Of a stretch of DNA of 64,000 bases, positions 30,228-62,531 are shown piece by piece. Position numbers and translations under genes: made by a program. Source of the stretch: Pseudomonas sp. PDM18 (lineage in GTDB: Bacteria; Pseudomonadota; Gammaproteobacteria; Pseudomonadales; Pseudomonadaceae); assembly GCF_014852585.1 (NCBI RefSeq), contig NZ_JACVBX010000016.1, positions 1-64,000 on the forward strand, in the 5' to 3' direction. Numbering within the stretch: position 1 is the stretch's first letter; every line of letters starts with the position of its first letter. Under the pieces are notes generated by a model. The model did no database searches and was not told the DNA's origin. It saw nothing but the letters and a program-made list of their open reading frames with translations.

Positions 30228-30272
30228 GTAGGAGCGGGCCATGCCCGCGATCGCGCCCATGGGGCGCTCCTA
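30228..30272. repeat. REP pair between hemF and aroE
   Basis: GTAGGAGCGGGCCATGCCCG at 30228 and the inverted GGGGCGCTCCTACAG at the right end can form a long stem between the two co-oriented genes. Confidence 0.8.
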
Positions 30273-30292
30273 CAGGTTCGCGAGAGTTCGAC

Positions 30293-32367
<2,075 letters not shown>

Positions 32368-32380
32368 TGGGGTGAAGGGC

Positions 32381-32443
32381 GTTCGCGAGCAAGCTCGCTC
32401 CTACAGACCAGCTCTTCGTAGGAGCGAGCTTGCTCGCGAACCG
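32381..32443. repeat. REP pair between qor and tsaC
   Basis: GTTCGCGAGCAAGCTCGCTC (with CTACAG following) and the inverted GTAGGAGCGAGCTTGCTCGC flank an 11-bp spacer between two convergent genes. Confidence 0.88.
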
Positions 32444-32464
32444 AATGTCACCGCGTTATCACGC

Positions 32465-33022
32465 TTACGACGGGCGTACTGTCTCGCCGGTACGCAGATC
32501 GCGGATCAGGCTCGGATTACGGCGCCCGCCCAGGGCGCCACCGAGCACGCCATCCAGCTCGCCACGGAAATACTGCTCTACACGCAGGCGGCTGCGCGCA
32601 GCGGGCCGGCCGGCAGGGTTGGCGGAGGTAGAAATCAGCGGGCCGGTGAAGCGGCACAGTTCGCGCACCAACGGGTGGTCGGTGACACGCAGCGCCACAG
32701 TATCGTGCTCGCCGGTCACCCACTCGGGCAGGCGTCCCTGGTGCGGCACCAGCCAGGTGTTCGGGCCGGGCCAGCTGCTGGCGAGCGTGTCCTGCCAGGC
32801 TTCGGGCAGATCTTCGAGGAGGAAGTCGAACTGGCGGATATCGCCGGCCACCACGATCATGCCCTTTTCCACCGGGCGTGCCTTGATCGCCAGCAGTCGG
32901 TACACGGCGTCGGCGCTCCACGGGTCGCAGCCCAGGCCCCAGACGGCTTCGGTCGGGTAAGCGATCACTCCGCCGTCGCGCACGACCTTTGCCATGCGCT
33001 GGGTTCGCCAGTTGCTGTACAT
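32465..33022 (-). CDS. tsaC: threonylcarbamoyl-AMP synthase
   Basis: A 185-residue YrdC/Sua5-family enzyme that makes threonylcarbamoyl-AMP from threonine, bicarbonate and ATP for the t6A37 tRNA modification. The YrdC motif [22 protein letters not shown] is near the N terminus and the Lys-x-Arg motif occurs in [34 protein letters not shown] is the conserved C-terminal part. It lacks the Sua5 C-terminal domain and is of short TsaC length. It follows dprA by 41 bp on the same strand, as in other gammaproteobacteria. Confidence 0.95.
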
Positions 33023-33063
33023 CGTGAATTCCTCGGTTCTGCGATGCGCGGCAGTTTACGTGC

Positions 33064-34164: not shown

Positions 34165-34251
34165 GGCGCAGTCCTTGCCGTGGGGAAGTCGTCCGGACTA
34201 TGCCGCGCAGGCAGACGCCCCCGCTGTCGGACCCTTCCGGATCGCGCCCAC

Positions 34252-34277
34252 AAAAAACCCCGCCGGAGCGGGGTTTT
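34252..34277. terminator. bidirectional-type terminator after the LysM gene
   Basis: CCCCGC-CGGA-GCGGGG with AAAA on the left and TTTT on the right. It ends the minus-strand LysM gene and probably limits read-through into dprA. Confidence 0.92.
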
Positions 34278-34295
34278 CTTCGACTCACGCGTCGA

Positions 34296-35321
34296 TCAGG
34301 GGTTGAGCACGCGGTCGTTGACCTCCAGCGAACGGGTGGCGGTCAGCACCAGACCGTAGCTCAGGCGGTTATAGGTGCGGAAGATCATCACCAGGCCCGA
34401 GCGCTCGTCCGGGATCTTCACCATCTCGTCGGTGACACGGTCGCGCACGGTTTCGCCCAGCTTGTAGATCGCCAGTACATTGCCTTCGGCCAAACCATCG
34501 CGGGAGCCCTTGTCGATGGTCACAACGTCATACTTGCCGATCTGGGTCACGCCGCGCGGCACGTCGATGATGGTGCCCTTGATCGGGGTGGACGGCTCGC
34601 TGGGCATGAAGGTCGAAGTGATCGCGCGTTCCTCGGTCGGGAACAGGCGGTCGCCAGGGCGGACTTCCTGGGTGGTGCGGGTCAAGCGCAGGGTAGCGAT
34701 ATCGCCTTCCTTCGCCGTGACGTTGGCACTGCCGACATCCGTGGCATCAATACCCAGCAGTTCATTGGTCTCCGGGTCGGTATAGACCTTGGCCTGCCGG
34801 AAGACGCCGTAGTTGCTCTCCTCCGACAGCGAGCTGCCACGGGCGTAGGCACGGTCGCCAGCGCCGGTGATCACACTTTCCTCGTCACCCGCAACCACAT
34901 GGGGGGCGCTGGAAAACTCGGTGTCGCTGTCGACGATGCGGTTGGACAGCAGGAAGGCGTTGATCTTCTCCAGTGGGATGGTCGGGATCGCCTCGGCGAC
35001 GGGGCTGCTGCGCACTCGCGGCGACAGCTTGATGGTCCCGCGCGACTCCCCGCGGTTGAGCGTCAGGCGCGGCTGGCCGTCAACGTACGTGAGACTCAGC
35101 ACATCACCTGGATAGATCAGGTGCGGGTTCTGAATCTGCGGATTCACCTGCCAGATTTCCGGCCACTTCCACGGCTTGCTGAGGAATTTGCCGGAGATGT
35201 CCCAGAGGGTGTCGCCCTTCACTACGGTATAGCGATCCGGATGGCCTTCCTTGAGCTGCACGGCAGCCTGCGCCACCCCGCCTGCGGCGAGCAGCAGCAG
35301 GGCGAGTAGTGTTTTCCTCAT
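34296..35321 (-). CDS. LysM peptidoglycan-binding protein, TsaP-like
   Basis: A 341-residue secreted protein. The signal peptide is RKTLLALLLLAAGGVAQA. An N-terminal LysM domain at about residues 32-85 (HPDRYTVVKGDTLWDISGKFLSKPWKWPEIWQVNPQIQNPHLIYPGDVLSL) should bind peptidoglycan. The large C-terminal domain contains VRPGDRLFP and GNVLAIYKLG. This is the orthologue position and architecture of P. aeruginosa PA0020, reported as TsaP, the type IV pilus secretin-associated protein. The MRKTLL start was chosen over an upstream ATG because it begins the signal peptide. A role at the PilQ secretin is inference from orthology. Confidence 0.88.
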   Translation of the reverse strand: MRKTLLALLLLAAGGVAQAAVQLKEGHPDRYTVVKGDTLWDISGKFLSKPWKWPEIWQVNPQIQNPHLIYPGDVLSLTYVDGQPRLTLNRGESRGTIKLSPRVRSSPVAEAIPTIPLEKINAFLLSNRIVDSDTEFSSAPHVVAGDEESVITGAGDRAYARGSSLSEESNYGVFRQAKVYTDPETNELLGIDATDVGSANVTAKEGDIATLRLTRTTQEVRPGDRLFPTEERAITSTFMPSEPSTPIKGTIIDVPRGVTQIGKYDVVTIDKGSRDGLAEGNVLAIYKLGETVRDRVTDEMVKIPDERSGLVMIFRTYNRLSYGLVLTATRSLEVNDRVLNP

Positions 35322-35458
35322 GCGGTGAATCCCTTTATTATGTGTACACATGAAACGCCTGGAAGCCGCCCCTACCGCGCTTTCCAGCGTTTTTCGATGC
35401 TGCTCAGCATATTAGCAGCCGATTTTGACTTTATTCCACAAGTGCATCACAAACGTAT

Positions 35459-35965
35459 ATGGCCATTCTGAACATTCTCGAATTCCCCGATCCGCGCCTG
35501 CGGACCATCGCCAAGCCGGTCACGGTCTTCGATGACGCCCTGCGCACGCTGATCGACGACATGTTCGAGACCATGTACGAGGCGCCGGGCATCGGTCTTG
35601 CGGCAACGCAGATCAACGTGCACAAGCGCGTCGTGGTGATGGACTTGTCCGAGGACAAGTCCGAACCCCGGGTCTACATCAACCCGGAGTTCGAATTCCT
35701 CACCGAGGAAATGGACCAGTACCAGGAAGGCTGCCTGTCGGTGCCGGGCTTCTACGAAAATGTAGACCGTCCGCAGAAAGTGCGGATCAAGGCCCAGGAC
35801 CGCGACGGCAACCCCTTCGAGGAAGTTGCCGAGGGCCTGCTCGCAGTGTGCATCCAGCACGAGTGCGACCACCTCAACGGCAAGCTGTTCGTCGACTACC
35901 TGTCCAACCTCAAGCGCGACCGCATCCGCAAGAAGCTGGAAAAGCAGCACCGGCAACAGGCGTGA
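35459..35965 (+). CDS. def: peptide deformylase
   Basis: A 168-residue metal enzyme that removes the formyl group from nascent N-termini. All three signature motifs are intact: [16 protein letters not shown] and HECDHLNG, which supply the catalytic glutamine, the metal-binding cysteine and two histidines plus the catalytic glutamate. The start at [15 protein letters not shown] matches the family. I see no good Shine-Dalgarno sequence before it (CACAAACGTAT), so translation may rely on an unstructured AT-rich leader. It is followed by fmt, separated by a strong hairpin. Confidence 0.98.
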
Positions 35966-35976
35966 CCCCATCCCCC

Positions 35977-36008
35977 AAAGGCTTGCCCCGGCAAGCCTTT
36001 TGTTTTTT
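35977..36008 (+). terminator. strong hairpin with T-tract between def and fmt
   Basis: AAAGGCTTGCC (35977-35987) pairs perfectly with GGCAAGCCTTT (35990-36000), followed by TGTTTTTT. It has all the features of an intrinsic terminator but sits between two genes expected to be co-expressed. Confidence 0.9.
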
Positions 36009-46190: not shown

Positions 46191-47207
46191 TTAGCCGAGC
46201 ACCTCGGCGACCACCGCGAGGGTGTCGCCGCTCTGCACCAGGCCGGGAAAATGCCGCGCGGCGAGGATGCCGCTGCGCTTGGCGCGGTACTCCACCGGCG
46301 CGGCGCCGGTGCGCAACACATCGTGCACCCGCGCCAGCACCTCGCCGCGTTCGACGCGTTCGCCCAGGTCACGGCACATCTCCAGCAGGCCGCCGTGCTC
46401 ACTGGCGACGAAGCAATCGCCATCGGGCATGTCGAGCATCACCGACTTCGCCGGTTCGACTTCGCCGCGCAGGATGCCGGCCTGCACCAGTACATTGCGC
46501 ACGCCACGCCGGGCGATGGCCACGGTGCGCGCGCTGCTGCTGCCGCCGCCACCCAGTTCAGTGGTGACGAACAGCTTGCCTTGCTCCTCGGCGGCGCTGT
46601 CGTACATGCCCACCGCATCCAGCTCCAGCATGCGCATGGAATAGGGCGCGGCGAAGGCGCGCATCAGCGCCTCGCTGGCCTGCTGCTGGGCCTTGTCCGG
46701 CAGCACGTGGCAGGCGGCGAAGGGCAGGAAGTCGAGGGTGCGGCCGCCGGAATGGATATCCAGCACCACGTCCGCCAGCGGCAGCAGGTTGCGCTGGAAG
46801 TAGTCGGCGATCTTCTGCGTCACCGTGCCGTCCGGGCGACCGGGGAAGCTGCGGTTGAGGTTGCCGGCGTCGATCGGCGAGGTGCGCTTGCCGGCGAGGA
46901 ACGCCGGGGTGTTCATGAACGGCACGATGATCACCCGGCCGCGTACGTCCTCGGCGCGCAGTTCCTGGGCCAGGCGGCTGAGCGCCACCGGGCCTTCGTA
47001 TTCGTCGCCATGGTTGCCGCCGGTGAGCAGCGCGGTGGGGCCGTCGCCGTTCTTCACCACGCAGATCGGGATCATCACCGCACCCCAGGCTGAATCGTCC
47101 CGCGAGTAGGGCAGCTTGAGGTGGCCGTGCTGCACGCCGTCGCGCCGGAAGTCGACGCTGGCAGCGATGGGGTTCTCGCGCAGCGGCTTGTCGAGTGCAT
47201 GGGTCAT
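46191..47207 (-). CDS. doeB: N-acetyl-L-2,4-diaminobutyrate deacetylase (DoeB/EutE)
   Basis: A 338-residue zinc hydrolase of the succinylglutamate desuccinylase/aspartoacylase family. In ectoine degradation it deacetylates N-alpha-acetyl-L-2,4-diaminobutyrate to diaminobutyrate. Zinc ligands are in TGGNHGDEYEG (His66, Glu69) and VVLDIHSGG (His). NLNRSFPG and TTELGGGGSSSARTV are family motifs. The gene is 4 bp downstream of doeA and is flanked by doeX and eutC/eutB, which fixes the pathway. Regiospecificity (alpha rather than gamma isomer) follows from the known enzyme. Confidence 0.93.
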   Translation of the reverse strand: MTHALDKPLRENPIAASVDFRRDGVQHGHLKLPYSRDDSAWGAVMIPICVVKNGDGPTALLTGGNHGDEYEGPVALSRLAQELRAEDVRGRVIIVPFMNTPAFLAGKRTSPIDAGNLNRSFPGRPDGTVTQKIADYFQRNLLPLADVVLDIHSGGRTLDFLPFAACHVLPDKAQQQASEALMRAFAAPYSMRMLELDAVGMYDSAAEEQGKLFVTTELGGGGSSSARTVAIARRGVRNVLVQAGILRGEVEPAKSVMLDMPDGDCFVASEHGGLLEMCRDLGERVERGEVLARVHDVLRTGAAPVEYRAKRSGILAARHFPGLVQSGDTLAVVAEVLG

Positions 47208-47211
47208 CGCC

Positions 47212-48402
47212 TCACTCCTTCACGAACAGCTGGCGCGGGTAGTCGCAGAAGGTTTCCACGCCGCGCTCGGTGATGAGGATGCTTTCGGTGATTTCCAGGC
47301 CCCAGTCGTCCATCCACAGGCCGGGCATGAAGTGGAAGGTCATGCCCGCTTCGAGCACGCTGTTGTCGCTCGGGCGCAGGCTCATGGTGCGCTCGCCCCA
47401 GTCCGGCGGGTAGCTGATACCGATGGGGTAGCCGCAGCGGCTGTCCTTGTGGATGCCGAACTTCTCCAGCACGCCGAAGAAGGCGCGGGCGATGTCCCCG
47501 GTGGTGTTGCCGGGTTTGGCGGCATCCAGTCCGGCGGCGATGCCTTCGACCACGGCCTTCTCCGCGTCGAGGAAATGCTGGGGCGGCTTGCCCAGGAACA
47601 CCGTGCGCGACAGCGGGCAGTGGTAGCGCTTGTAGCAGCCGGCAATCTCGAAGAAGGTGCCGGCGCCGCGTTCGAAGGGCGTGTCGTCCCAGGTCAGGTG
47701 CGGCGCGCTGGCGTCGGCGCCGGTGGGCAGCAGCGGGACGATGGCCGGGTAGTCGCCGCCGTGGCCGTCCACGCCGAGGATGCCGGCGCTATAGATGTCC
47801 GCCACCAGTTCATTCTTGCGCATGCCCGGCTCGATGCACTCGACGATGTACGCGTGCATCCGTTCGACGATGCGCGCGGCAACGCGCATGTACTCGATCT
47901 CGCGCAGCGATTTCACCGCGCGCTGCCAGTTCACCAGGGCCGTGGCGTCGACGAATTTCGCGCTCGGCAGGTTGGCCTGCAGCGAGCGGAAGGCGGCGGC
48001 GCTGAAGTAGTAGTTGTCCATCTCCACGCCGATGGCCCGGTCGGACCAACCGCGCGCGGCGATGACCTCGCGGGACAGGTAGTCCATCGGATGGCGCTCG
48101 CTGGACTGCACGTAATGGTCGGGGTAGCCGACGATGTTGTCCGCCTGCATGAACACCGTGCGCCGCGCGCCGTTGGCGTCCTGGCCGCGACCGAACCAGA
48201 CCGGCTCGCCCTCCAGCGCCAGCAGCACGCACTGGTGTACGTAGAAGGACCAGCCGTCGTAGCCGGTGAGCCAGGCCATGTTCGACGGATCGGTGACCAG
48301 CAGCAGCTCGATGCCGCGCTGTTGCATGCTGGCGCGGACTTTGGCGATCCGCTGGGCGTATTCCTCCCGGCTGAAGGGGAGGTTGACGACGATTTCGGAC
48401 AT
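47212..48402 (-). CDS. doeA: ectoine hydrolase (DoeA/EutD)
   Basis: A 396-residue M24 pita-bread-fold enzyme that opens the ectoine ring to N-acetyl-2,4-diaminobutyrate. The N-terminal creatinase-like domain (IELLLVTDPSNMAWLTGYDGWSFYVHQ) precedes the M24 domain with IAGCYKRYHCPLSRTVFLG, GYPIGISYPPDWGE and GMTFHFMPGLWM. The start at MSEIVVNLPFSREEYAQRI is the known family start and has AGAGAGGA upstream. It follows eutC with a REP-containing gap of 158 bp and precedes doeB by 4 bp. Confidence 0.94.
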   Translation of the reverse strand: MSEIVVNLPFSREEYAQRIAKVRASMQQRGIELLLVTDPSNMAWLTGYDGWSFYVHQCVLLALEGEPVWFGRGQDANGARRTVFMQADNIVGYPDHYVQSSERHPMDYLSREVIAARGWSDRAIGVEMDNYYFSAAAFRSLQANLPSAKFVDATALVNWQRAVKSLREIEYMRVAARIVERMHAYIVECIEPGMRKNELVADIYSAGILGVDGHGGDYPAIVPLLPTGADASAPHLTWDDTPFERGAGTFFEIAGCYKRYHCPLSRTVFLGKPPQHFLDAEKAVVEGIAAGLDAAKPGNTTGDIARAFFGVLEKFGIHKDSRCGYPIGISYPPDWGERTMSLRPSDNSVLEAGMTFHFMPGLWMDDWGLEITESILITERGVETFCDYPRQLFVKE

Positions 48403-48438
48403 GCGGAAATCCTCTCTCGGTTTTTGTTTTTTGCTTTT

Positions 48439-48531
48439 GTAGGAGCGAGCTTGCTCGCGAACCCGCCCAGCGCTGGCGCCACCGGAAAATCTGTTCGCGA
48501 GCAAGGGCTAGGCGCCCCCTCGCTCCTACAG
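48439..48531. repeat. REP pair, right half a variant with an insertion
   Basis: GTAGGAGCGAGCTTGCTCGC at 48439 and, inverted, GTTCGCGAGCAAGGGCTAGG then CGCCCCCTCGCTCCTACAG. The extra block GGGCTAGGCGCCCCC splits the REP arm. It sits between eutC and doeA inside the operon. Confidence 0.88.
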
Positions 48532-48560
48532 GTTTTCCTGCATGAATCGGAGCCGAGTGG

Positions 48561-49553
48561 TCAGCTGTGGAATTGGAATCCTTTCCCCATCCGCTGCGCC
48601 CGCTGGAAAGCCAGTCCGGCAATGGCGGTGTCCTGCGCGCCGGTGCCGGTGAGGTCGCAAAGGGTGACGTCTTCGGCACGGCGGCGGCCTGCGCGCTGCC
48701 CGGCGATGACCTGGCCCAGCTCGGCGAAATCGGCGTCCGGCCGCACGCAGCCAGCCTCCAGCGCATGGTGCAGCTCACCCAACACACAGGTCTGGCTGAG
48801 GCGGTCGGCGACATAGCAGTCCACCGCCGCCAGGGCGTCGGCGGCGATCTCGTTCTTGTGCTCGGCATCCGAGCCCATGGCGGTGATGTGCAGGCCGGGG
48901 CGCAGGTGTTTTTTCTGGATCAGCGGCTCGCGACTGGGCGTGCTGGTGATGGCGATATCGGCGCCTTCCAGCGCTTCGTCGATGCTGGCGCAGGCGCTGA
49001 CCTCAATGCCCAGGCTGGTGCTCAGCTCCTGCGCGCAGTGCCGCGCCTTGTCGATGTCCCGCGCCCAGACGCTGGCACCCTCGATGGGCCGCACCAGGCA
49101 CAGCGCCTTGAGCTGCAGCCGCGCCTGTTCGCCGGCGCCGATCAGCGCGACCTGGCGCGACTCCTCGCGGGCCAGCCACTTGGCTGCCACCGCGCCGGCG
49201 CACGCGGTGCGCACGGCGGTGAGGTAGCCGTTGTCCAGCAACAGCGCGTCGAGCAGGCCGGTGCGCGAGGAGAGCAGCATCATCATGCCGTTGAGACTGG
49301 GCAGGCCGAGCTTGGGGTTGTCGAAGAAACCAGGACTGACCTTGATGGCGAAGCGCGACAGGCCGGGCAGGTAGGCGGTCTTCACGTCGACTTCGCCGTT
49401 GTGCTCGGGCACGTCCAGGCGAAGGATCGGCGGCATTGCCACCGGCGCCGTGGCGAGCAGGCGGAAGGCCTGTTCGACAGCGTCGAGGCTCTCCCGGTCT
49501 ATCGCCACGCAGGCGCGCAAGTCGGCTTCGCTGAGCAGGGTGACGTCAGCCAT
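48561..49553 (-). CDS. eutC: EutC, ornithine cyclodeaminase-like hydroxyectoine catabolism protein
   Basis: A 330-residue member of the ornithine cyclodeaminase/mu-crystallin family. The Rossmann motif QVALIGAGEQARLQLKAL is central and the N-terminal part includes YLPGLSRFAIKVSPGFFDN. In ectoine clusters such a protein, EutC, acts with EutA and EutB to convert 5-hydroxyectoine towards ectoine. The start overlaps the eutB stop by 8 bp. The family also contains alanine and lysine dehydrogenases/cyclodeaminases, so the eutC name depends on context. Confidence 0.88.
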   Translation of the reverse strand: MADVTLLSEADLRACVAIDRESLDAVEQAFRLLATAPVAMPPILRLDVPEHNGEVDVKTAYLPGLSRFAIKVSPGFFDNPKLGLPSLNGMMMLLSSRTGLLDALLLDNGYLTAVRTACAGAVAAKWLAREESRQVALIGAGEQARLQLKALCLVRPIEGASVWARDIDKARHCAQELSTSLGIEVSACASIDEALEGADIAITSTPSREPLIQKKHLRPGLHITAMGSDAEHKNEIAADALAAVDCYVADRLSQTCVLGELHHALEAGCVRPDADFAELGQVIAGQRAGRRRAEDVTLCDLTGTGAQDTAIAGLAFQRAQRMGKGFQFHS

Positions 49554-50520
49554 GGGCGGATTCCTCGAGGATCTGCTGGTGTTGTTCGATGGCGATGTTG
49601 CGGCCGCTGACGATCACCACCACCGGGCCGACCGGGGTGATCAGGCCGTCCAGCAGGGCGGCGATGCCGACGGCGGCGGCGCCTTCCACCACCTGCCGTT
49701 CCTCGCGGTAGGCGTGGCGGATGCCGGCGGCGATGGAGAGCTCGTCGAGCAGGTGCAACTGGTCGCAGTAGTCGCGGACAAGGGCGAAGGTGTAGCGGTT
49801 GTCCAGGCCGATGCCGCCGCCGAGGGAGTCGGCCAGGGTCGGCAGTTCCTCCACTTCCACCGGGCGTCCGGCGGCGAGGCTGGCGGCCATGGCGGCGCCA
49901 CGGCGCATGCTGATGCCGTGGACGCGGATAGTCGGGTCGACGTGCTTGAGCGCCAGCGCCACGCCGCCGAACAGCCCGCCACCGGAGAGCGGCACCAGCA
50001 CCTGGCGCACGTCCGGCAGCTGTTCGAGGATTTCCAGACCGAGGGTGCCCTGGCCGGCGATGATTTGCGGGTGGTCGAAGGGCGGCAGCAGCGTCGCGCC
50101 CTGCTCGCGGGCAATCCGCTCGGCTTCGGCCTGGGCGTCGTCCTGGCTGTGGCCGACGATGCGCACCTCGGCGCCCAGCTCGCGGATCGCCTGGACCTTG
50201 TTCGCCGGCACCAATTGGGACAGACAGATGGTGGCGTGCACGCCAAGCACCCGCGCGGCATGGGCCAGCGCCCGGCCGTGGTTGCCGGTGGAGGCGGCGA
50301 CGACGCCCCTGGCCTTCTGCTCGTCATCGAGCTGGGCAATCGCATTGCTCGCGCCGCGCAGCTTGAAGCTGCCGGTGATCTGCTGCGATTCGAGCTTTAG
50401 GTACACCGGCGCGCCGAGCAGGCGCGACAGGCTGGGCGAATGCTCCAGCGGCGTCTGCCGCACCAGGCCCTGGATGCGCTGGCGTGCTCGGTACAGCTCG
50501 ACGGGGGAAATCGGCTCCAT
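49546..50520 (-). CDS. eutB: EutB, threonine dehydratase-like hydroxyectoine catabolism protein
   Basis: A 324-residue fold-II PLP enzyme. The PLP lysine is in QQITGSFKLRGA (Lys53), ASTGNHGRALAHAARVLG is the substrate loop and VPLSGGGLFGGVALA the phosphate loop. There is no ACT domain, so it is the catabolic or biosynthetic-like short form. In ectoine clusters this is EutB, proposed to remove water from 5-hydroxyectoine. It is the first gene of the minus-strand unit eutB-eutC-doeA-doeB-doeX and has a CTAG-centred dyad about 60 bp upstream. Confidence 0.88.
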   Translation of the reverse strand: MEPISPVELYRARQRIQGLVRQTPLEHSPSLSRLLGAPVYLKLESQQITGSFKLRGASNAIAQLDDEQKARGVVAASTGNHGRALAHAARVLGVHATICLSQLVPANKVQAIRELGAEVRIVGHSQDDAQAEAERIAREQGATLLPPFDHPQIIAGQGTLGLEILEQLPDVRQVLVPLSGGGLFGGVALALKHVDPTIRVHGISMRRGAAMAASLAAGRPVEVEELPTLADSLGGGIGLDNRYTFALVRDYCDQLHLLDELSIAAGIRHAYREERQVVEGAAAVGIAALLDGLITPVGPVVVIVSGRNIAIEQHQQILEESAHG

Positions 50521-50580
50521 CTCGGCCTCCGGGGGAATGCAGTGGGGCCGAGTGTAGGGGCGAGAAATTGTCGCGATGAA

Positions 50581-50597
50581 TGTACTAGGACGATGTA
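50581..50597 (-). promoter_or_regulatory. candidate EnuR operator upstream of eutB
   Basis: On the minus strand the sequence ATCGTCCTAGTACATT matches 13 of 16 positions of ATTGTCCTAGTGCAAT found upstream of enuR. It lies about 60 bp upstream of the eutB start. Assignment to EnuR is inference. Confidence 0.45.
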
Positions 50598-50617
50598 GTT
50601 CGCGGAGGTGATTTTTC

Positions 50618-50642
50618 GTAGGAGCGAGCTTGCTCCTGCAGG
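50618..50642. repeat. single REP half upstream of eutB
   Basis: GTAGGAGCGAGCTTGCTCCT followed by GCAG; lies between the eutB promoter region and the following GCATAAC repeat. Confidence 0.75.
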
Positions 50643-50653
50643 GCTGCAGGCGG

Positions 50654-50729
50654 TAGGGCGCATAACCTGGAACAGGTTATCCGCCGCGCTCGTCACGGCG
50701 GATAACGCTGGCGCGTTATGCGCCCTACG
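50654..50729. repeat. palindromic repeat of the GCATAAC/GGCGGATAAC family
   Basis: Outer arms TAGGGCGCATAAC and GTTATGCGCCCTA, inner arms GTTATCCGCC and GGCGGATAAC. It is the most symmetric of the three copies in the window and ends about 28 bp from the enuR stop. Confidence 0.85.
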
Positions 50730-50756
50730 GCCACAAGTGCGGGCCCGGCGTAGGGC

Positions 50757-52151
50757 TTAGAAATCGTGGATCTTCGGGTACTGCCCGAAAAGTTCGCGCA
50801 TGTCTTCCAGGGCGCTGGCCATACGTTCGTCGCTGCATTCGGCGCCCATGCACAGCCGCACCGCGCGCGGCCGGGGCGTGCCGCGCACCATGAACGGATC
50901 GGGCGGCGTCACGGCAATGTGTCGATGACGCAGCTCGCGCACCAGGCTGTCCAGTTCCCAGTGTTCGGGGATGCCGATCCAGGCACTCAGCGAATGCGGA
51001 TCGCAACCGCGCAGGTGGTCGCCGAGGTATTCGCGCACCAGCCCCTGGCGCTTCTCCAGCACACGGCGCTGCAGGCCGATCAACGCGGCGGCGTTGCCGT
51101 TGTGGATCCAGCGTGCCGCCACTTCCGCCAGCAGCGGCGTGCCCATCCAGCTGTTCACCCGCAGGATGCTCTCGGTACGCAGCGCCAGCCGTCGCGGCAT
51201 GGCCAGGTAGCCGATGCGCAGGCCGGTAAGCACGCTCTTGGTGAAGCTGGTGCAGTAGAACGACAGGTCCGGTAGGTAATGGCTGAGCGGCGGCGGGCGG
51301 CGCTCGCCGAGCAGCGGGCCGTAGACGTCGTCCTCGATCACATACACGCCATAGCGCTGGGCGATAGCGGCGATCTCGCGGCGGCGCGTATCGGGCATCA
51401 GGCAGGAGGTCGGATTGTTCAGGTTGGGCGTGCACACCAGCGCGGTGATGCGCTCGTTGGCGCAGAGGTCCTCGAAATGCTCGGGATCGATGCCTTCCTT
51501 GTCGATCTCCACGCCCTTGAGGGTGAAGCCGAGCACCTGGGAATTGCCGATCACACCGTGGTCGGTGAGCTGCTCGCAGAGCACCACGTCGTCCGGCCCG
51601 GCGAGAGAGGCGAGGGCAAGGAAGATGCCGTGGGCCGCGCCGTTGGTGATCAGCACGTCGTCGCGCTCGCGCTTGAGGCCCAGTTGCGCCAGCCATTTCA
51701 CCCCGGCGTCGCGGTGCGTATCGAAGCCGGCGACCGGGCGGCAGGCCCGCATCCACGGCTGGTCGGTTTCCTGCGCCAGCTCACGGCAGCTGTCCTGCCA
51801 CAGGCGGTCGTGCTCGCGGGTGTGGACGATGCTGGCGATGGAGAAATCCACCAGCGCGCGCTCGGGGTGGTCGACCATGTAGTGGGCCATGCCCTCGGTC
51901 ATCCGCCGCGTGACGAAGCTGCCGCGGCCGACCTCGCATCGCACCAGGCCCTGGCGCTCCAGTTCCTTGTAGGCGTTGGTCACGGTTTGCACGCTGATGC
52001 CCAGGCCATCCGCGACGTGGCGCTGCGGCGGCAGGCGCTGCCCGTCGCTCAGGCGACCTTGCTCGATGTCGCCGGCAATGGCCTGCACCAGGGTCTTGTA
52101 CTTGGATTCGCCGACCCGCAGGTCGGCCAGGGCGCGACGCCAGGCTTCCAT
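50757..52151 (-). CDS. enuR: MocR/GntR-type regulator of ectoine catabolism
   Basis: A 464-residue MocR-type protein. The N-terminal GntR winged helix (about residues 15-80: KYKTLVQAIAGDIEQGRLSDGQRLPPQRHVADGLGISVQTVTNAYKELERQGLV) is fused to a fold-I aminotransferase-like domain. The PLP-binding lysine is in TSFTKSVLTGLRIGY (Lys305). EnuR of Ruegeria binds alpha-acetyl-diaminobutyrate or diaminobutyrate through its PLP and is released from DNA to induce uptake and catabolic genes. Here it is divergent from ehuBCDA and upstream of the eut/doe genes. A CTAG-centred palindrome lies 57 bp upstream of its own start. Confidence 0.92.
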   Translation of the reverse strand: MEAWRRALADLRVGESKYKTLVQAIAGDIEQGRLSDGQRLPPQRHVADGLGISVQTVTNAYKELERQGLVRCEVGRGSFVTRRMTEGMAHYMVDHPERALVDFSIASIVHTREHDRLWQDSCRELAQETDQPWMRACRPVAGFDTHRDAGVKWLAQLGLKRERDDVLITNGAAHGIFLALASLAGPDDVVLCEQLTDHGVIGNSQVLGFTLKGVEIDKEGIDPEHFEDLCANERITALVCTPNLNNPTSCLMPDTRRREIAAIAQRYGVYVIEDDVYGPLLGERRPPPLSHYLPDLSFYCTSFTKSVLTGLRIGYLAMPRRLALRTESILRVNSWMGTPLLAEVAARWIHNGNAAALIGLQRRVLEKRQGLVREYLGDHLRGCDPHSLSAWIGIPEHWELDSLVRELRHRHIAVTPPDPFMVRGTPRPRAVRLCMGAECSDERMASALEDMRELFGQYPKIHDF

Positions 52152-52582
52152 CTTCAGCGCTCCGTCTGGTCAGGGGGCCAGAGTGACGGACGCGCACACC
52201 GGCGGCAATTGTCCTAGTGCAATGTCGACCGTTCCGCCCCTTTTGTATGCTCGGGCGCAGGACATATAGCCGCGCACCTGTCAGTACATCGGGCAGCACA
52301 TCGGGCCGCATTGTCAGGCCCGCGCAGAAAAAACCCTCGGCTGCGTTCGTCGCGACGGTGGCTTTTTCCCGCCGCGGGGTTGTCGATCAGGAACAGCCGC
52401 AAGGTCCCCCGGCTTAGTCTGGCGTCGAGCTTGTCGCCGTCGCCATCGACAGCGGCGCAAGAACTTCGGAAGGCCCCACCCAGGGCCCGACCTACAAGAA
52501 CAACAGTCGTACGACATTGCTACCTGCCATCCATCGCCGCGCGCCAACCGCGTTCGGCAAGAGAAGATCAGGAGATCCGAAG
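52152..52582. other. 431-bp enuR-ehuB divergent control region
   Basis: No gene is seen. It contains the dyad ATTGTCCTAGTGCAAT at 52208-52223, further ATTGTC-type half-sites (for example near 52310), and the ehuB ribosome site GGAGAT just before 52583. It probably holds promoters for both enuR and the ehu operon, with a leader of up to about 350 bp for ehuB. Confidence 0.6.
52208..52223. promoter_or_regulatory. candidate EnuR operator in the enuR-ehuB region
   Basis: ATTG-TC-CTAG-TG-CAAT is a perfect dyad apart from the two central-flanking dinucleotides. It lies 57 bp upstream of enuR. A related site lies at the same distance upstream of eutB. Confidence 0.5.
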
Positions 52583-53437
52583 ATGAGTACCGCCCCTGTT
52601 TTCCTGCGCCGCCTGAGTCTTGCCTGCACCCTGCTGGCCTGCGCTGTAGCCAGCGCCGGCAGCTACGCCGAAACCACCCTGGAACGCATCAAGAGCACCG
52701 GCACCGTGCGCATCGGCTACGCCAACGAAGCGCCGTTCGCCTACACCGAGACCTCCGGCAAGGTCACCGGTGAATCCCCGGAAATCGCCACGCAGATCTT
52801 CACGAAAATGGGTGTGAAGAAGATCGAACCGGTGCTGACCGAATGGGGCGCGCTGATCCCCGGCCTGCGTGCCGGGCGTTTCGACGTCATCGCCGCCGGC
52901 ATGTACATCACCCCGCCGCGCTGCCAGCAGGTGATCTTCACCGACCCGCACTACCAGATTCCCGATTCGCTGCTGGTGAAGAAGGGCAACCCGAAGAACC
53001 TGCACAGCTACGCCGACGTGAAGAACAACCCGGACGTGAAGCTGGCGATCATGTCCGGCACCGCCGAGCTGGGTTACGCCCGCGCGGAAGGTGTGGCGGA
53101 AGAGCAGATCGTCCAGGTGCCCGACACCACCGCGCAGCTGCAGGCCGTGCGCGCCGGCCGCGCCGACGCCAGCGTCGGCACCGCGCTGACCATGAAGGGC
53201 CTCGCGGCGAAAGGCGGCGACTCGGTGGAAGCCATCACCGACTTCAAGGACGACCCGTCGCACATCGGTTACGGCGCCCTTGCCTTCCGCCCGGATGACA
53301 AGGACCTGCGCGATGCCGTCAACGCCCAGCTCAAGCAGTGGCTGGGCGGCGCCGAGCACCTGGCGACGGTCAAGCCGTTCGGCTTCGACAAGTCCAACGT
53401 CACCGACAAGACCGCCGCCGAACTCTGCAAACAGTGA
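52583..53437 (+). CDS. ehuB: ectoine/hydroxyectoine ABC transporter substrate-binding protein
   Basis: A 284-residue periplasmic binding protein of the SBP_bac_3 (polar amino acid) family. The signal peptide ends near GSYAET. TVRIGYANEAPFAYTE, EWGALIPGLRAGRFDVIAAGMYITPPRC and the C-terminal LATVKPFGFDKSNVTDKTAAELC match the EhuB pattern I know. Phe and Tyr residues in the APFAYTE and MYITPPRC stretches would form the ligand cage. It is the first gene of ehuBCDA, divergent from enuR. Confidence 0.92.
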   Translation: MSTAPVFLRRLSLACTLLACAVASAGSYAETTLERIKSTGTVRIGYANEAPFAYTETSGKVTGESPEIATQIFTKMGVKKIEPVLTEWGALIPGLRAGRFDVIAAGMYITPPRCQQVIFTDPHYQIPDSLLVKKGNPKNLHSYADVKNNPDVKLAIMSGTAELGYARAEGVAEEQIVQVPDTTAQLQAVRAGRADASVGTALTMKGLAAKGGDSVEAITDFKDDPSHIGYGALAFRPDDKDLRDAVNAQLKQWLGGAEHLATVKPFGFDKSNVTDKTAAELCKQ

Positions 53438-57559: not shown

Positions 57560-58447
57560 TCAGTACCAGCGAGCCTCGCCTTCGGGGCGCTTCTTGAAGC
57601 GCTTCATGGTCCACATGTACTGGCTCGGATAGGCGCGCACGTACTTGGCCAGCTCGCGGCTGAGCGCGGCCACCGACACTTCCATGTCCTTGTCGTACAT
57701 GTCCGCCGGGGCGGCTTCGAGGATTACCTTGTAGCCGCTGCCATCGGGCAGGCGCACGGCGTGGAAGAACACCCCGCGGGCCTTGCCGCGCGCGAGCAGC
57801 GACGGCACGAACTTGCTGGTCAGCGCGGTGGTGCCCAGGTAGGGCACGAACAGGCCCGAGCCCAGATCCGGTTCCGGGTCACAGGGGATGCCGACGCAGC
57901 CACCGTTCTTCACTTCCCTGATCACGCTCTTGATGCCTTCAGGAGTCGAAGGCGCGACACGGTTGCCCAGCTGCACGCGCTGCTTCTTCAGCAGGTCATC
58001 CACCGCCTTGAGCTTGGGCGGGCGGTAGAAAATGATCGGCTTGGCGTAGGAGCAGTAGAAGTGGTTAAGCACTTCCCAGTTACCCAGGTGGCTGGTGATG
58101 CCGACCAGGCCGTCGCCGGAGGCCAGCGCTTCTTCCAGCACTTCCATGCCTTCGACTTCGCGGATGTACTGCAGCGATTTCTGCGGCGACCACATCCAGG
58201 CGCAGGCGCTCTCGGTCAGCGTGCGGCCGATGTCCATCAGGCTCTGGCCGACGAGCTTCTCCAACTCGACCTCGGACAGCTCGGGGAAGCAGTGCGACAG
58301 GTTGATCCGCACGATCTCGCGGGACCGATTGGGCAGCTTCCACATCAGCCAGCCGATACCAGCGCCCAATGCGCCCACCGCGCGCCACGGCAGCATGGCG
58401 AACAACCGCAGGAAGCCCACCACCAGTGCGCCCTTGAATTTCTCCAC
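57560..58447 (-). CDS. LpxL/HtrB-type lipid A secondary acyltransferase
   Basis: A 295-residue inner-membrane acyltransferase that adds a secondary acyl chain (laurate-type in Pseudomonas) to lipid A. The N-terminal hydrophobic anchor is at about 5-30 and the catalytic H-x4-D/E motif is in ITSHLGNWEVLNHF. GGCVGIPCDPEPDLGSGLFVPYLGTTAL is the conserved downstream region. The start is the GTG with AAGGAG 6 bp upstream, giving (M)EKFKGALVVGFLRLF, which matches the P. aeruginosa PA0011 protein in length. It is divergent from the VIT/vWA gene. Confidence 0.93.
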   Translation of the reverse strand: MEKFKGALVVGFLRLFAMLPWRAVGALGAGIGWLMWKLPNRSREIVRINLSHCFPELSEVELEKLVGQSLMDIGRTLTESACAWMWSPQKSLQYIREVEGMEVLEEALASGDGLVGITSHLGNWEVLNHFYCSYAKPIIFYRPPKLKAVDDLLKKQRVQLGNRVAPSTPEGIKSVIREVKNGGCVGIPCDPEPDLGSGLFVPYLGTTALTSKFVPSLLARGKARGVFFHAVRLPDGSGYKVILEAAPADMYDKDMEVSVAALSRELAKYVRAYPSQYMWTMKRFKKRPEGEARWY

Positions 58448-58604
58448 GGAAAACTCCTTCAAGCAGATGGCGGCCATTGTAGCCGCTCGCGCCGGCAAAT
58501 CGGGCGCCATCGCGGCTCCACACAATCTCCACCCGGCGAACACAGTGCGCCCACGGCGCGCGCGCAACCTGCGGCCATTCGATCCACTGGCCCGGAGAAC
58601 CGCG

Positions 58605-60581
58605 ATGCGTACCCCCACCTTCCTTGCACGGCTGTGCGGCCTGCTGTTGGCGCTGAGCGCCAGCCTGGCGGCGCTGGCTGCTGATGACAGCAGTTCGAGT
58701 CCCTACTTCTTCGTCGAGAACGCCGATCCGGCCGTCGATGCCCTGCCGCTCAAGGCAACCCGCGTGGATGCCCGCGTGCTGGGCAACATCGCCGAGGTGA
58801 CGGTGACCCAGGAATACCGCAACCAGGGCAAGACGCCGCTGGAAGCGCGCTACGTGTTTCCCGCCTCGACCCGCGCCGCCGTCCACGGCATGACCGTGCA
58901 CCTGGGTGATCGGGTGATCCAGGCGCAGATCCGCGAGAAGCAGAAGGCCAAGGTCGAGTACCAGCAGGCCAAGCAGGACGGCAAGACCGCCGCGCTGCTG
59001 GAGCAGGAGCGCGAGAACGTGTTCCAGATGAACGTCGCCAACATCCTCCCCGGCGACGTGGTGCAGGTGGAACTGCGCTACAGCGAGCTGCTGGTGCCCA
59101 CCGACGGGCGCTTCCAGTTCGTCTTCCCCACCGTGGTCGGGCCGCGCTACAACGGTCGCGGTGAGTCCGGTAGCGGCAAGCAGCAGTGGATTGAATCACC
59201 GTACCTGCCAGCCGGGCAGCCTTCGGCCACCACGTTTGATCTACAAGTCGAACTGCTGGCGCCGCTGCAGATCGGCGAGATTACCTCGCCCTCCCATCGC
59301 CTGACGATCCAGCGTAACGGCCAGCACGCCACCGCTCGGGTAATGGCTGACGATGCCACCGCCAGCAACCGCGACTTCATCCTCGACTACCAGCTCGGCG
59401 GCGAGTCCGTGCAGAGCGGCCTGCTGCTCTCGCGCGGCGAGCAGGAGAACTTCTTCCTCGCCATGGTTGCCCCGCCGCGCGCGCCGGACGCCCGGCTCAT
59501 CGTGCCGCGCGATTATGTCTTCGTGGTCGACGTCTCCGGGTCCATGAACGGTTTCCCGCTGGACACCACGAAGACCCTGCTGCGCGACCTGATCGGCCGC
59601 CTGCGCCCTAGCGACACCTTCAACCTGCTGCTATTCGCCGGCGACAACCGCAAGCTGGCGGAGCGTTCGCTCCCCGCCACGCCGGATAACATCCGCCAGG
59701 CCATCGAGCTGCTGGACAGCCAGGTCGGCGCCGGCGGCACCGAGCTGATGCCGGCCCTGCGCGAGGCGCTGGCGATGCCCACCGATCCGGAACGTTCGCG
59801 CAGTTTCGTGGTGGTCACCGACGGCTACGTCACCGTCGAGAGCAGCGCCTACAAGCTGGTGCGCGAGAACCTGAGCAAGGCCAATCTGTTCGCCTTCGGC
59901 ATCGGCAGCGCGGTGAACCGCAGCCTGATCGAAGGCCTGGCGCGGGCGGGGCAGGGCGAGCCCTTCGTGGTGACCGATGATGAGCAGGCGAGCAAGGCGG
60001 CGCAGCGCTTCCGCAAGATGATCGACAGTCCGCTGCTCAAGGGCATCCAGGCCCGCTTCGAGGGACTCGACGTCTACGACGTGGAGCCGTTGCAATTGCC
60101 CGACCTGTTCGCCAATCGCCCGCTGGTGCTGTTCGGCAAGTGGAAGGGCGAGCCGCGCGGGGAGCTGCGTCTCGACGCCCACGCCGCCGACGGTCCATTT
60201 CAAGTGCGGCTGCCAATCAGCGCTGGCAACCTCACCGACAGCGGCGGTGCGCTCGCCCACCTGTGGGCGCGCCAACGCCTTGCCAGCCTGATGGATCAGG
60301 AGGCGCTCGACGGCGGCTACGAGTTCAGCTCGCGGATCCTCGACCTCGGCCTGAAATACCAGCTGCTCACGCCCTACACCTCGTTCATCGCCGTTGACCA
60401 GCAGGTGCGCAACCCCGACCCGCAGGCGAGCAAGACGGTGGATCAACCGCTGCCGATGCCCCAGGGCGTGAGCAATAACGCCATCGGCAGTACGGTACCG
60501 GGAACGCCGGAGCCAGGCGTCTGGGCCATGTTGCTGCTGGCGGCACTCGGCGGCTGGTGGTGGCGGAGGAAGGCGGCATGA
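58605..60581 (+). CDS. secreted VIT/vWA protein with PEP-CTERM-like sorting tail (exosortase target)
   Basis: A 658-residue exported protein. A signal peptide (about 1-26) is followed by a VIT domain (about 31-160: VENADPAVDALPLKATRVDARVLGNIAEVTVTQEYRN). A vWA domain spans about 300-470 with a complete MIDAS: DVSGS (Asp309, Ser311, Ser313), Thr379 and Asp406. The last 25 residues are a tripartite sorting signal: Pro-Glu-Pro at 635-637, a hydrophobic helix (VWAMLLLAALGGWWW) and a basic end (RRKAA). The exosortase gene starts inside its stop codon, so it is almost certainly that enzyme's substrate. The domain pair resembles LPXTG sortase targets of marine proteobacteria. A surface adhesive or protective role is plausible but not shown. 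Confidence 0.9.
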   Translation: MRTPTFLARLCGLLLALSASLAALAADDSSSSPYFFVENADPAVDALPLKATRVDARVLGNIAEVTVTQEYRNQGKTPLEARYVFPASTRAAVHGMTVHLGDRVIQAQIREKQKAKVEYQQAKQDGKTAALLEQERENVFQMNVANILPGDVVQVELRYSELLVPTDGRFQFVFPTVVGPRYNGRGESGSGKQQWIESPYLPAGQPSATTFDLQVELLAPLQIGEITSPSHRLTIQRNGQHATARVMADDATASNRDFILDYQLGGESVQSGLLLSRGEQENFFLAMVAPPRAPDARLIVPRDYVFVVDVSGSMNGFPLDTTKTLLRDLIGRLRPSDTFNLLLFAGDNRKLAERSLPATPDNIRQAIELLDSQVGAGGTELMPALREALAMPTDPERSRSFVVVTDGYVTVESSAYKLVRENLSKANLFAFGIGSAVNRSLIEGLARAGQGEPFVVTDDEQASKAAQRFRKMIDSPLLKGIQARFEGLDVYDVEPLQLPDLFANRPLVLFGKWKGEPRGELRLDAHAADGPFQVRLPISAGNLTDSGGALAHLWARQRLASLMDQEALDGGYEFSSRILDLGLKYQLLTPYTSFIAVDQQVRNPDPQASKTVDQPLPMPQGVSNNAIGSTVPGTPEPGVWAMLLLAALGGWWWRRKAA

Positions 60582-61918
60582 TCCGCCGCCTGCCTGGCTG
60601 GAGCTGGCTGCTGTTCGCCGCGCTGGCGGCCTGGCCGAGCTGGCTGTGGGCGGCGCGGCGGCTCGGTGATGGTTCGGATGATCCGCTGGGGATCATCGCG
60701 CTGGCGGCCCTCGGGCTGCTGCTCTGGCGCGACCGCTCCAGCCTGCGCGCCCAGCCGCGTCTGCGCTGGCTGGGCGTGGCAGCGCTGCTGCTGATCGTCG
60801 GGGCGCTTTTCCAGTCGATCCTGCCGCCGCTGCTGCGCGGGTTGCTCTCGGTGCTGGCGTTGCTGCTGGTGATCCTCAGCTTGCGCGCCCCCGGCCAGCC
60901 CTGGCTGGCTTGGCTGGGGCTGGGCGTGCTGTCGCTGCCGCTGCTGTCTTCGCTGCAGTTCTTCGTCGGTTATCCACTGCGTGTGGTCACTGCCGAGGTC
61001 AGCGCATGGCTGCTGCGCCTGGGCAGCTGGACGGTGGAACGGCAGGGCAGTTCGCTGCTGGTGGATGGCCAGTGGGTGATGGTCGATGCGCCCTGCTCGG
61101 GTATCCAGATGGCCTGGGTCGGCTACTTCACCGCCTGCTCGCTGGCAGCCTGGCAGCGCCTGCCGGATCGTTCGTTGCTGCGTCGCCTGCCGCTGGTGGG
61201 GCTGCTGGTGCTGGGCGGCAATATCCTGCGCAACACGCTGCTGGTGTGGGGCGAGAGCGGGGCGAGCGGGTTTCCCGGCTGGGCCCATGAGGCGATCGGG
61301 CTCCTGGTGTTCGTCGGAGTCTGCGGGATGATTTTCCGGGTGATCGGGCGGCGTGCATTTGTACCGCCGCCGGCGGTGGAAGCTACCGGGCCTGGCACTT
61401 CTGCGCGTTTCGCCGGCAGCCTGCTTGGTGCTCTGCTGCTGGCGATGCTCTGGCCTTTCCTGTCGCCGGCTACCACCGCGTCAGAGGCCGCTCGCGTCGC
61501 CCATGAATGGCCGGTGCAATTCGAAGGTCGTGCCTTGCGCCCGCTGGCGCTTTCGCCGGTGGAGCAGCGCTTCGCCGCGGACTTTCCCGGCCAGCTCGGC
61601 CGTTTTACCGATGGCCAGCGCAGCATCGTACTGCGCCAGGTGCTGCGGCCGACTCGCAAGCTGCATCCGGCGGAGGATTGCTTCCGCGCACTGGGCTATC
61701 GCATCGAGCAGACGCAGCTTCGGCAACGGGTTGGCGCGCAAGGCCTGCAACGCTGCTTCGTGGTGACCAGCGAGGGCCTGCGGCTGCAAGTCTGCGATTA
61801 CATCGAGGACGCCGCCGGCCAGTCCTTCTCCGATACCTCGGCCTGGTACTGGTCGGCACTGTCCGGCCAATCCGCCGGGCCCTGGCAGGCCGTCACAGTG
61901 GCCAACCCGCTGCTTTAG
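60578..61918 (+). CDS. xrtQ: exosortase (XrtQ-like) with fused C-terminal domain
   Basis: A 446-residue protein. Residues 1-260 form the multi-spanning exosortase domain with the transpeptidase-like triad: Cys173 in DAPCSGIQMAW, Arg218 in NILRNTLLVWG and His237 in GWAHEAIGLLVF. After one more hydrophobic segment (about 278-296), a soluble domain of about 150 residues (HEWPVQFEGRALRPLAL, RKLHPAEDCFRALGYRIEQ) recalls the EpsI/DUF3485 partner of other exosortases. It should cleave and transfer the PEP-CTERM tail of the protein encoded just upstream, with which it overlaps by 4 bp. The XrtQ subgroup name is from memory of the family; exosortase itself is clear. It converges on tag with overlapping stop codons. 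Confidence 0.88.
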   Translation: MIRRLPGWSWLLFAALAAWPSWLWAARRLGDGSDDPLGIIALAALGLLLWRDRSSLRAQPRLRWLGVAALLLIVGALFQSILPPLLRGLLSVLALLLVILSLRAPGQPWLAWLGLGVLSLPLLSSLQFFVGYPLRVVTAEVSAWLLRLGSWTVERQGSSLLVDGQWVMVDAPCSGIQMAWVGYFTACSLAAWQRLPDRSLLRRLPLVGLLVLGGNILRNTLLVWGESGASGFPGWAHEAIGLLVFVGVCGMIFRVIGRRAFVPPPAVEATGPGTSARFAGSLLGALLLAMLWPFLSPATTASEAARVAHEWPVQFEGRALRPLALSPVEQRFAADFPGQLGRFTDGQRSIVLRQVLRPTRKLHPAEDCFRALGYRIEQTQLRQRVGAQGLQRCFVVTSEGLRLQVCDYIEDAAGQSFSDTSAWYWSALSGQSAGPWQAVTVANPLL

Positions 61919-62469
61919 GCGCGAGTCAGCTGGGCGTAGCGGTCGCAGTCGACGGTGTGGTCCATCACCATACCGGTGGCCTGCATGAAGGCGTAGCAGA
62001 TGGTCGGGCCGACGAAGTTGAAGCCCGCCTTGCGCAACGCCTTGCTCATGGCCTCGGCCTCGGGCGTCACCGCCGGCACGTCGCCCCGTCCACTGAAATG
62101 ATTGACCTTGGGCTGGCCGCCAACGAAGGACCAGAGGAATGCCACCGGGTCCTCCAGCTTCAGCCAGGCCTGGGCGTTCTGCCGCGCAGCCCTGAGTTTG
62201 GCGAAGTTGCGGATGATGCCGGGATCCTGCATGCGCTCCTCGATTTCCTCGTCCGTCATGCGGGCCAGGCGCTCGGGATCGAAGCCGAACAGCACCTCGC
62301 GGTAACGCTCGCGCTTCCTCAGCACGGTGATCCACGACAGCCCGGCCTGGGCGCCTTCGAGGATGATCATCTCGAACAGCTTGCGGGCATCGCGCTGGGG
62401 CACGCCCCACTCGGCATCGTGGTAGGCGATATACAGCGGATCGTCGTTACACCAGAAGCAACGGGGCAT
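61915..62469 (-). CDS. tag: DNA-3-methyladenine glycosylase I
   Basis: A 184-residue base-excision repair enzyme that removes 3-methyladenine from alkylated DNA. The N-terminal zinc/structure motif PRCFWCNDDPLYIAYHDAEWG, the LFEMIILEGAQAGLSWITVLRKRERYRE helix-hairpin-helix region and the C-terminal VGPTICYAFMQATGMVMDHTVDC with zinc-binding His/Cys are intact. The start at MPRCFWC is the family start. The LexA box upstream predicts SOS control, unusual for tag. Its stop overlaps the exosortase stop on the other strand. Confidence 0.96.
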   Translation of the reverse strand: MPRCFWCNDDPLYIAYHDAEWGVPQRDARKLFEMIILEGAQAGLSWITVLRKRERYREVLFGFDPERLARMTDEEIEERMQDPGIIRNFAKLRAARQNAQAWLKLEDPVAFLWSFVGGQPKVNHFSGRGDVPAVTPEAEAMSKALRKAGFNFVGPTICYAFMQATGMVMDHTVDCDRYAQLTRA

Positions 62470-62515
62470 GGCAGTCAGCCTGCGAAACGGGAAGGTTCTG
62501 ACTATATACAAATAG

Positions 62516-62531
62516 CTGTACAAAAATACAG
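62516..62531 (-). promoter_or_regulatory. LexA (SOS) box upstream of tag
   Basis: CTGTACAAAAATACAG has the perfect CTGT-N8-ACAG form and agrees with CTGTATAAATATACAG at 14 of 16 positions. It is centred about 54 bp upstream of the tag ATG and overlaps the expected promoter region, which includes TATATAGT. Confidence 0.75.

Follow-up and report, generated by a model that had tools for sequence, protein, structure and literature searches.

The 64,000-nucleotide stretch of Pseudomonas sp. PDM18 analysed here (contig NZ_JACVBX010000016.1; hereafter the window) carries two overlapping genes, which encode a secreted VIT/vWA protein with a PEP-CTERM sorting tail and, directly downstream, an exosortase Q (Table 1). 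Our analyses support the pair as a self-contained one-enzyme/one-substrate exosortase system: across the taxonomic family, the adjacent VIT/vWA gene encodes the only PEP-CTERM protein above cut-off in 21 of 23 sampled carriers of exosortase Q, and within the genus the two genes are present or absent together, as a unit. In addition, the pair looks like a target of CreB, judging from a predicted box that precedes the substrate gene. An earlier, preliminary description of this DNA mentions neither the enzyme's C-terminal domain nor the presence/absence polymorphism nor the CreBC link.

Exosortase Q and its VIT/vWA partner

The preliminary description had pointed to an upstream protein that ends in Pro-Glu-Pro, a hydrophobic helix and RRKAA and possesses an intact metal ion-dependent adhesion site (MIDAS), and both features were borne out. 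Translation places PEP at residues 635-637, followed by the helix and by RRKAA at the very end, and the tail passed the PEP-CTERM model TIGR02595 with 17.2 bits (cut-off 16); PF07589 gave 19.0 bits for the whole protein and 24.9 bits in the genome search, below and above its cut-off of 20.7, respectively. With a hydrophobic segment at residues 6-24 of the N terminus, the motif, helix and basic end typical of PEP-CTERM substrates are therefore found on a secreted protein, with a score above a model cut-off. Alignments of 23 sequences each, taken from the window, G707 (a genome of another family) and 21 further family genomes, revealed that T634-P-E-P637 of the substrate is invariant. The same holds for D309, S311, S313, T379 and D406, which follow the established MIDAS residue pattern and include DVSGS at residue 309; this invariance is compatible with metal-dependent adhesion by the substrate. 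G359 was left out of both alignments, and in this three-contig assembly (locus L146) the substrate frame is broken and the exosortase lies in two frames, whether through decay, faulty assembly or, in the case of the enzyme, natural splitting.

The substrate and exosortase frames share four bases (ATGA, 60578-60581). NCBIfam names the enzyme exosortase Q, as it reaches 376.3 bits against NF012182 (cut-off 270) over residues 2-256, and the exosortase Pfam model PF09721 gave 85.9 bits (cut-off 25.7). Members of the exosortase superfamily share a Cys/Arg/His triad, which in this polytopic membrane protein, whose helices are seen in the model, consists of Cys173, Arg218 and His237. All three are invariant in the 23 aligned exosortases, and translation and family models thus confirmed both the 4-bp overlap and the three residues noted previously. 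Given 23 of 23 invariance, the conservation of the triad and of TPEP is more than chance. Exosortase Q would be expected to cleave the PEP-type tail. The enzyme continues beyond its core into a C-terminal domain with invariant residues of its own. Comparison of this domain with the C termini of three other exosortases, which we take to be EpsI-type, yielded an hhalign probability of 0.1%, with H, C, G and YW motifs aligning in order.

One substrate for one enzyme

The proposal that the enzyme is dedicated to a single VIT/vWA protein was examined by looking for many other PEP-CTERM proteins in the genome, and it was supported: the whole assembly of 6.4 Mb (6,425,165 bases in 65 contigs) contains one exosortase above the Pfam cut-off and one PEP-CTERM protein above cut-off. 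Three weaker PEP-CTERM matches were considered as extra substrates and found unconvincing, since two of them sit 156 and 323 residues before the stop codon and the third, at 10.9 bits (cut-off 20.7), corresponds to the final helix of a 298-residue frame with two EamA permease domains.

Exosortase Q was found in 11 of 25 genomes of the genus, in 23 of the 398 family genomes sampled, those of the genus among them, and, in a sample of the class, as a match in four of 369 genomes (PDM18 included), two of them above cut-off. Each of the 23 family carriers has exactly one exosortase, and none was detected in the 14 genus genomes that lack exosortase Q. In all 11 genus carriers the sole PEP-CTERM protein above cut-off adjoins the exosortase; the partner gene is likewise the only one above cut-off in 10 of the 12 carriers outside the genus, while in the other two (G231 and G389) the partner has a TPEP tail yet no PEP-CTERM match reaches the cut-off. 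Full-length matches to the VIT/vWA protein (E <= 2.6e-123) occur in 11/11 genus carriers and in 0/14 of the other genomes, where we detected only vWA-region matches in 11 (E at least 5.9e-14) and nothing in three.

A scan of public genomes covered the best 80 of 128 confirmed loci among the matches listed (18 from Pseudomonas and 62 others, mostly from Variovorax and relatives); these partly come from the same genomes as the family sample, so that the two sets are not additive. All 80 loci were fetched, and in each of the 79 that include DNA 5' of exosortase Q, the gene immediately upstream encodes a VIT/vWA protein with a TPEP tail. Adjacent genes and a single target in the genome are the hallmarks of a dedicated system in the sense of PMC3237569. 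Weighing against a strictly dedicated system, three of the 14 exosortase-Q-free genus genomes contain a PEP-CTERM match just at the cut-off (19.9 bits; 20.7 with neighbours), but located 27 residues before the stop codon. G707 has two weak VPxPA-type tails as well, but we do not regard them as counter-examples, because a second, stronger exosortase match was found there, about 33 kb from them.

A predicted CreB box upstream of the pair

The repeat TTCACN6TTCAC upstream of creD was reported to be critical for the binding of activated CreB (PMC4689548, seen in part). Its degenerate form TYCACN6TYCAC occurs once in the 64 kb of the window, as TCCAC-N6-TCCAC, against 0.19 copies expected and at least one copy in 15 of 100 shuffles. 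We furthermore trained a 27-base motif on 29 Pseudomonas creD promoters only (38 matches, 30 of them as loci, one incomplete and dropped). Among the 127,948 positions of the window, its top match (11.6 bits) lies at 58520, 85 bases before the substrate start, and the third-best (9.9 bits), at 58509, is another register of the same upstream site. In the 22 other family carriers the upstream site ranks first in 20, out of 28,000-36,002 positions each and at 5-29 bits, and it does so in 12 of 14 further exosortase-Q loci. Control genes in G697, one for a sortase-type VIT/vWA protein and one for another VIT/vWA protein, have upstream sites that rank 77 and 119, and TYCACN6TYCAC was not found at the 14 empty sites of the genus. 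The creD gene is present in 25/25 genus genomes and in 12/12 other family carriers, away from the pair in Pseudomonas, and creB, creC and creD are contiguous on another contig of PDM18; no creD match was obtained in G556 and G707. In L171 (Pseudomonas mangrovi), four tandem TCCAC half-sites with 11-bp spacing occupy about -99 to -61 of the substrate gene.

Outside Pseudomonas, cre genes stand beside the pair itself. In flanks of up to 6 kb a side, the 62 loci contain creD in 36 cases, creB plus creC in 10, creC in two and none of these in 14; thus 48/62 are accompanied by creB/creC or creD, compared with 0/18 of the Pseudomonas loci. NCBIfam models confirmed creB (298-319 bits, cut-off 273) and creC (465-484 bits, cut-off 356) in L178, L179, L216, L234 and L111 (the G707 locus), as well as creD in one example, L183 (476 bits, cut-off 275). 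The exact TTCACN6TTCAC tag was present within about 300 bases 5' of the substrate start in 58 of 61 loci, where starts were extrapolated from the alignment and L205 was dropped for missing upstream DNA. By context, it occurs in 36/36 loci with creD, 11/12 with creB/creC and 11/13 with neither, the loci lacking it being L175, L180 and L188. Altogether, 66 copies were counted in 20,130 bases of upstream DNA, against none in the remaining 770,567 bases. The spacer is variable, with 21 different 16-mers of which two account for 39 of the 66 copies, and among 29 permuted control words only two scored (in 55 and 23 loci), both of them register shifts of the same repeat, the other 27 giving zero. The substrate gene is preceded by the cre/blr tag in exact form in these 58 loci outside Pseudomonas and by a variant box within that genus.

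Several observations speak against control by CreB. The window site is weaker than the 29 training creD sites (11.6 bits compared with 22-46 bits) and the second-best window position (9.9 bits) falls inside an Nramp gene, so the argument from this site is one of rank, not strength. By the Pseudomonas motif, the upstream site comes only second in two of the 22 family loci (L139 and L146), 17th in L175 and 18th in G707, although the latter has the exact TTCAC tag, and TYCACN6TYCAC was not found with the distant relatives of the pair in G556 and G697. The Pseudomonas half-site TCCAC is one base off the published TTCAC, and its putative identity as a CreB box derives from its sharing with creD promoters. 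Finally, since creD and the substrate gene are divergently oriented in 36 loci, the tag may serve creD alone there.

Insertion site and neighbourhood

In all 11 genus carriers, the window being the eleventh, the pair lies between tag and an acyltransferase gene that we take to be hdtS, and the same two genes are adjacent in all 14 genomes without the pair. On a tree of hdtS and tag, presence and absence require two changes (2-3 over bootstraps), and G009, which lacks the pair, is nested beside a carrier with support of 98/97. This is most naturally read as a single gain plus a loss in G009, with separate gains possible where the tree is open. The 12 other family carriers and G707 have the pair at other sites, and neither hdtS nor tag occurs in the 14-19 kb inspected there.

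The insertion site in the window adjoins glyQ and glyS and, by eye, gyrB, recF, dnaN and dnaA. Family models detected no exopolysaccharide gene among hdtS, tag, seven further open reading frames (ORFs; 53.5-64 kb) and six ORFs at 46.2-53.4 kb, and the longest ORFs down to 41.7 kb and out to contig position 79 kb were read by eye only. The preliminary statement that no exopolysaccharide genes are nearby accordingly holds for the model-tested part, 46.2-64 kb. Window positions 46191-53437 contain a cluster for ectoine/hydroxyectoine use (DoeB, DoeA, EutC, EutB, the MocR-like EhuR and the binding protein EhuB, all above NCBIfam cut-offs), followed by ABC transporter genes. In several Pseudomonas, an autotransporter-type ORF is located just 3' of exosortase Q (L163, 7390-8391, with 144 bits against NF051851, cut-off 1700; and 13 other loci, some of them duplicates), possibly an outer-membrane partner or a chance neighbour.

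Table 1. Features of the exosortase Q locus in window coordinates
Feature	Position	Strand	Details and basis
Lysophospholipid acyltransferase, hdtS type (left flank)	57560..58447	-	NF004190, 590 bits; core gene of insertion site
Predicted CreB box, direct repeat TCCAC-N6-TCCAC	58517..58532	+	Wider match of creD-trained motif spans 58509-58546
VIT/vWA substrate gene	ATG 58605..stop 60581	+	658 residues, secreted, PEP-CTERM tail; ORF translation and family models
Substrate signal peptide, residues 1-26	58605..58682	+	By eye and hydropathy
VIT domain, residues 49-159	58749..59081	+	PF08487, 125 bits
vWA domain, residues 305-462	59517..59990	+	PF13768, 61 bits; MIDAS D309, S311, S313, T379, D406
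Sorting tail TPEP-helix-RRKAA, residues 634-658	60504..60578	+	PF07589, 24.9 bits; TPEP conservation
Exosortase Q gene	ATG 60578..stop 61918	+	446 residues; core 1-256 with Cys173, Arg218, His237; NF012182, conserved residues
Exosortase Q C-terminal domain, residues 307-446	61496..61915	+	Invariant W311, H363, C368, C393, C406, WYW 423-425
tag, DNA-3-methyladenine glycosylase I (right flank)	61915..62523	-	TIGR00624, 281 bits

Proposed mechanism and alternatives

We consider it probable that the pair is a dedicated exosortase system under CreBC control, in which the tail is cut and the protein transferred to an acceptor of the host. The VIT/vWA protein would be exported by Sec and retained in the inner membrane through its tail of TPEP, helix and basic residues, where exosortase Q would cut this tail through Cys173 together with Arg218 and His237, possibly assisted by its C-terminal domain. 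The freed C terminus would then be transferred to an acceptor present in any host cell, most plausibly a membrane-lipid amine: because the two genes form a unit in many hosts and at many sites without exopolysaccharide genes, the acceptor is most easily pictured as something common to all cells. For archaeosortase A, the nearest system worked out so far, transfer of the substrate to a lipid amine has been proposed (PMC7157517).

Expression of the pair may belong to the CreBC envelope-response regulon, through the CreB box just 5' of the substrate gene. In P. aeruginosa, CreBC is activated and creD goes up when PBP4 is lost or inhibited, and creD stands out in the transcriptome of PBP4 mutants, the further mechanism being uncertain (PMC2654508, in part). 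A response to disturbed cell-wall synthesis is thus offered as a testable setting for the pair. As a further point against the proposed regulation, CreBC represses creD in S. maltophilia (PMC4689548), so that CreB might either activate or repress the pair. More tentatively, and as a proposal we hold at somewhat below even chances, the pair may be a hitherto overlooked effector branch of the envelope-stress response run by CreBC in beta- and gammaproteobacteria. As the smallest exosortase system that is portable, it would deliver its substrate to an acceptor with housekeeping functions, for instance a phospholipid amine, instead of an exopolysaccharide.

The most serious alternative, though an unlikely one, is that exosortase Q is merely a protease that releases the VIT/vWA protein, unanchored, to the periplasm or medium. 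No acceptor-making gene was found with the pair at its window site, and the chemistry past the Cys/Arg/His triad is not legible in the letters; on the other hand, archaeosortase A, a related enzyme, has been connected with the attachment of its substrates to lipid (PMC7157517, in part) and sortase systems use tripartite tails of this kind (PMC3237569, in part), both of which argue for anchoring. As regards regulation, we think it rather improbable that the box belongs to a neighbouring gene or to another OmpR-family regulator. Direct repeats with roughly this spacing are common to OmpR-family regulators, the creD sites outscore the window site, and the divergent creD in 36 loci could claim the repeat for itself. 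Yet the motif was trained on creD promoters alone, the 14 empty sites are without TYCACN6TYCAC, and the exact tag is kept in 11/12 loci with only creB/creC and in 11/13 without any cre gene in the fetched flanks, all of which favours a CreB box that belongs to the pair.

There is little chance that the system serves more substrates whose tails escaped the PEP-CTERM models. The EamA-type permease, which ends in TPEPSALLG...RKR, could be such a case; against this stand the conserved adjacency, the joint presence or absence of the two genes and the lack of any other match above cut-off in the PDM18 genome. Least probable of all is a decayed or non-functional relic: one carrier lineage probably lost the pair and the G359 frames are broken, but triad, MIDAS and tail are intact in all 23 aligned sequences. 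Dedicated cleavage and transfer under CreBC control remains our preferred model.

Significance

The chemistry of exosortases is, to our knowledge, still largely open, partly since the enzyme usually has many substrates. A one-substrate, two-gene system that is naturally present or absent at one site in similar strains permits a clean genetic and proteomic test, and the predicted CreB box offers a candidate condition for switching it on, together with a physiological setting. The pair would also join the CreBC regulon as a candidate surface effector. Exosortases were themselves discovered by computation (PMC3237569).

The exosortase Q family is already known from NCBIfam, as are VIT/vWA proteins with differing sorting tails, PEP-CTERM included (PMC3237569, in part). 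What we regard as new are the CreB box, the tally of one enzyme to one substrate across many genomes, the joint presence or absence of the two genes and the helper domain, which is either fused to the enzyme or encoded separately. In the open-licence literature, we found no paper linking CreB or CreBC to exosortases and none joining CreBC or PEP-CTERM to the VIT domain or inter-alpha-trypsin; the string XrtQ was found only in engineering papers and, besides PMC3237569, none was found to join three of the terms exosortase, dedicated, von Willebrand and Variovorax.

Comparison with known systems

The window enzyme matches exosortase Q as defined by NF012182 (376 bits against a cut-off of 270, residues 2-256), but the model spans the core only, and neither its name nor its short description mentions the C-terminal domain, the constant VIT/vWA partner or the CreB link. 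The CreBC-CreD regulon shares the creD promoter motif with the pair, whereas the exosortase and its VIT/vWA partner are not among the members given in the available parts of PMC4689548 and PMC2654508. XrtA/EpsH systems have the exosortase core, triad and PEP tail in common with the pair. However, the exosortase/PEP-CTERM system was described as exopolysaccharide-associated (PMC1569441, in part) and a species that has any PEP-CTERM protein often has at least twenty (PMC3237569), in contrast to the one substrate of the window pair and its surroundings without exopolysaccharide genes.

The XrtN system (TIGR04476/TIGR04477) likewise combines an exosortase family enzyme with a VIT-domain substrate, which NCBIfam lists as "XrtN system VIT domain-containing protein" (TIGR04477), but the window enzyme scores only 56.7 bits, with a cut-off of 200. 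Relatives found in G556 and G697 are intermediate between XrtN and exosortase Q, with an XrtQ-like core (139-147 bits, cut-off 270), a VIT protein of 793-828 residues that matches TIGR04477 at 105-118 bits (cut-off 250), a separate gene for the C-terminal domain, and a divergent response regulator and kinase. The PEP-tailed VIT proteins at L113 3226-5712 and L112 9438-11819, with an N-terminal membrane region by eye, stand between XrtN substrates and exosortase Q partners, and the exosortase cores beside them possibly form an unnamed family.

In the dedicated sortase system of proteobacteria (sortase TIGR03784, VIT/vWA target TIGR03788), the cargo is homologous, each enzyme has one target and the genes are adjacent, whereas the enzyme is unrelated and the tail is LPXTG-type. 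The window substrate has a PEP tail and stays below the cut-off of TIGR03788, the model for the marine sortase target (429.4 against 551.65). Two dedicated sorting systems for VIT proteins coexist in G697 (L112 and L114). In one, a TIGR03788 target (833 bits) is encoded next to a class GN sortase (190.5 bits, cut-off 158); the other combines an exosortase, a PEP-tailed VIT protein, the C-terminal domain as a gene of its own and a two-component pair. The preliminary description was right to draw a parallel to the VIT/vWA proteins of LPXTG sortases, a parallel already in print in 2011, when VIT/vWA homologues were shown with GlyGly-CTERM, with LPXTG plus a dedicated sortase, or with PEP-CTERM (PMC3237569, in part).

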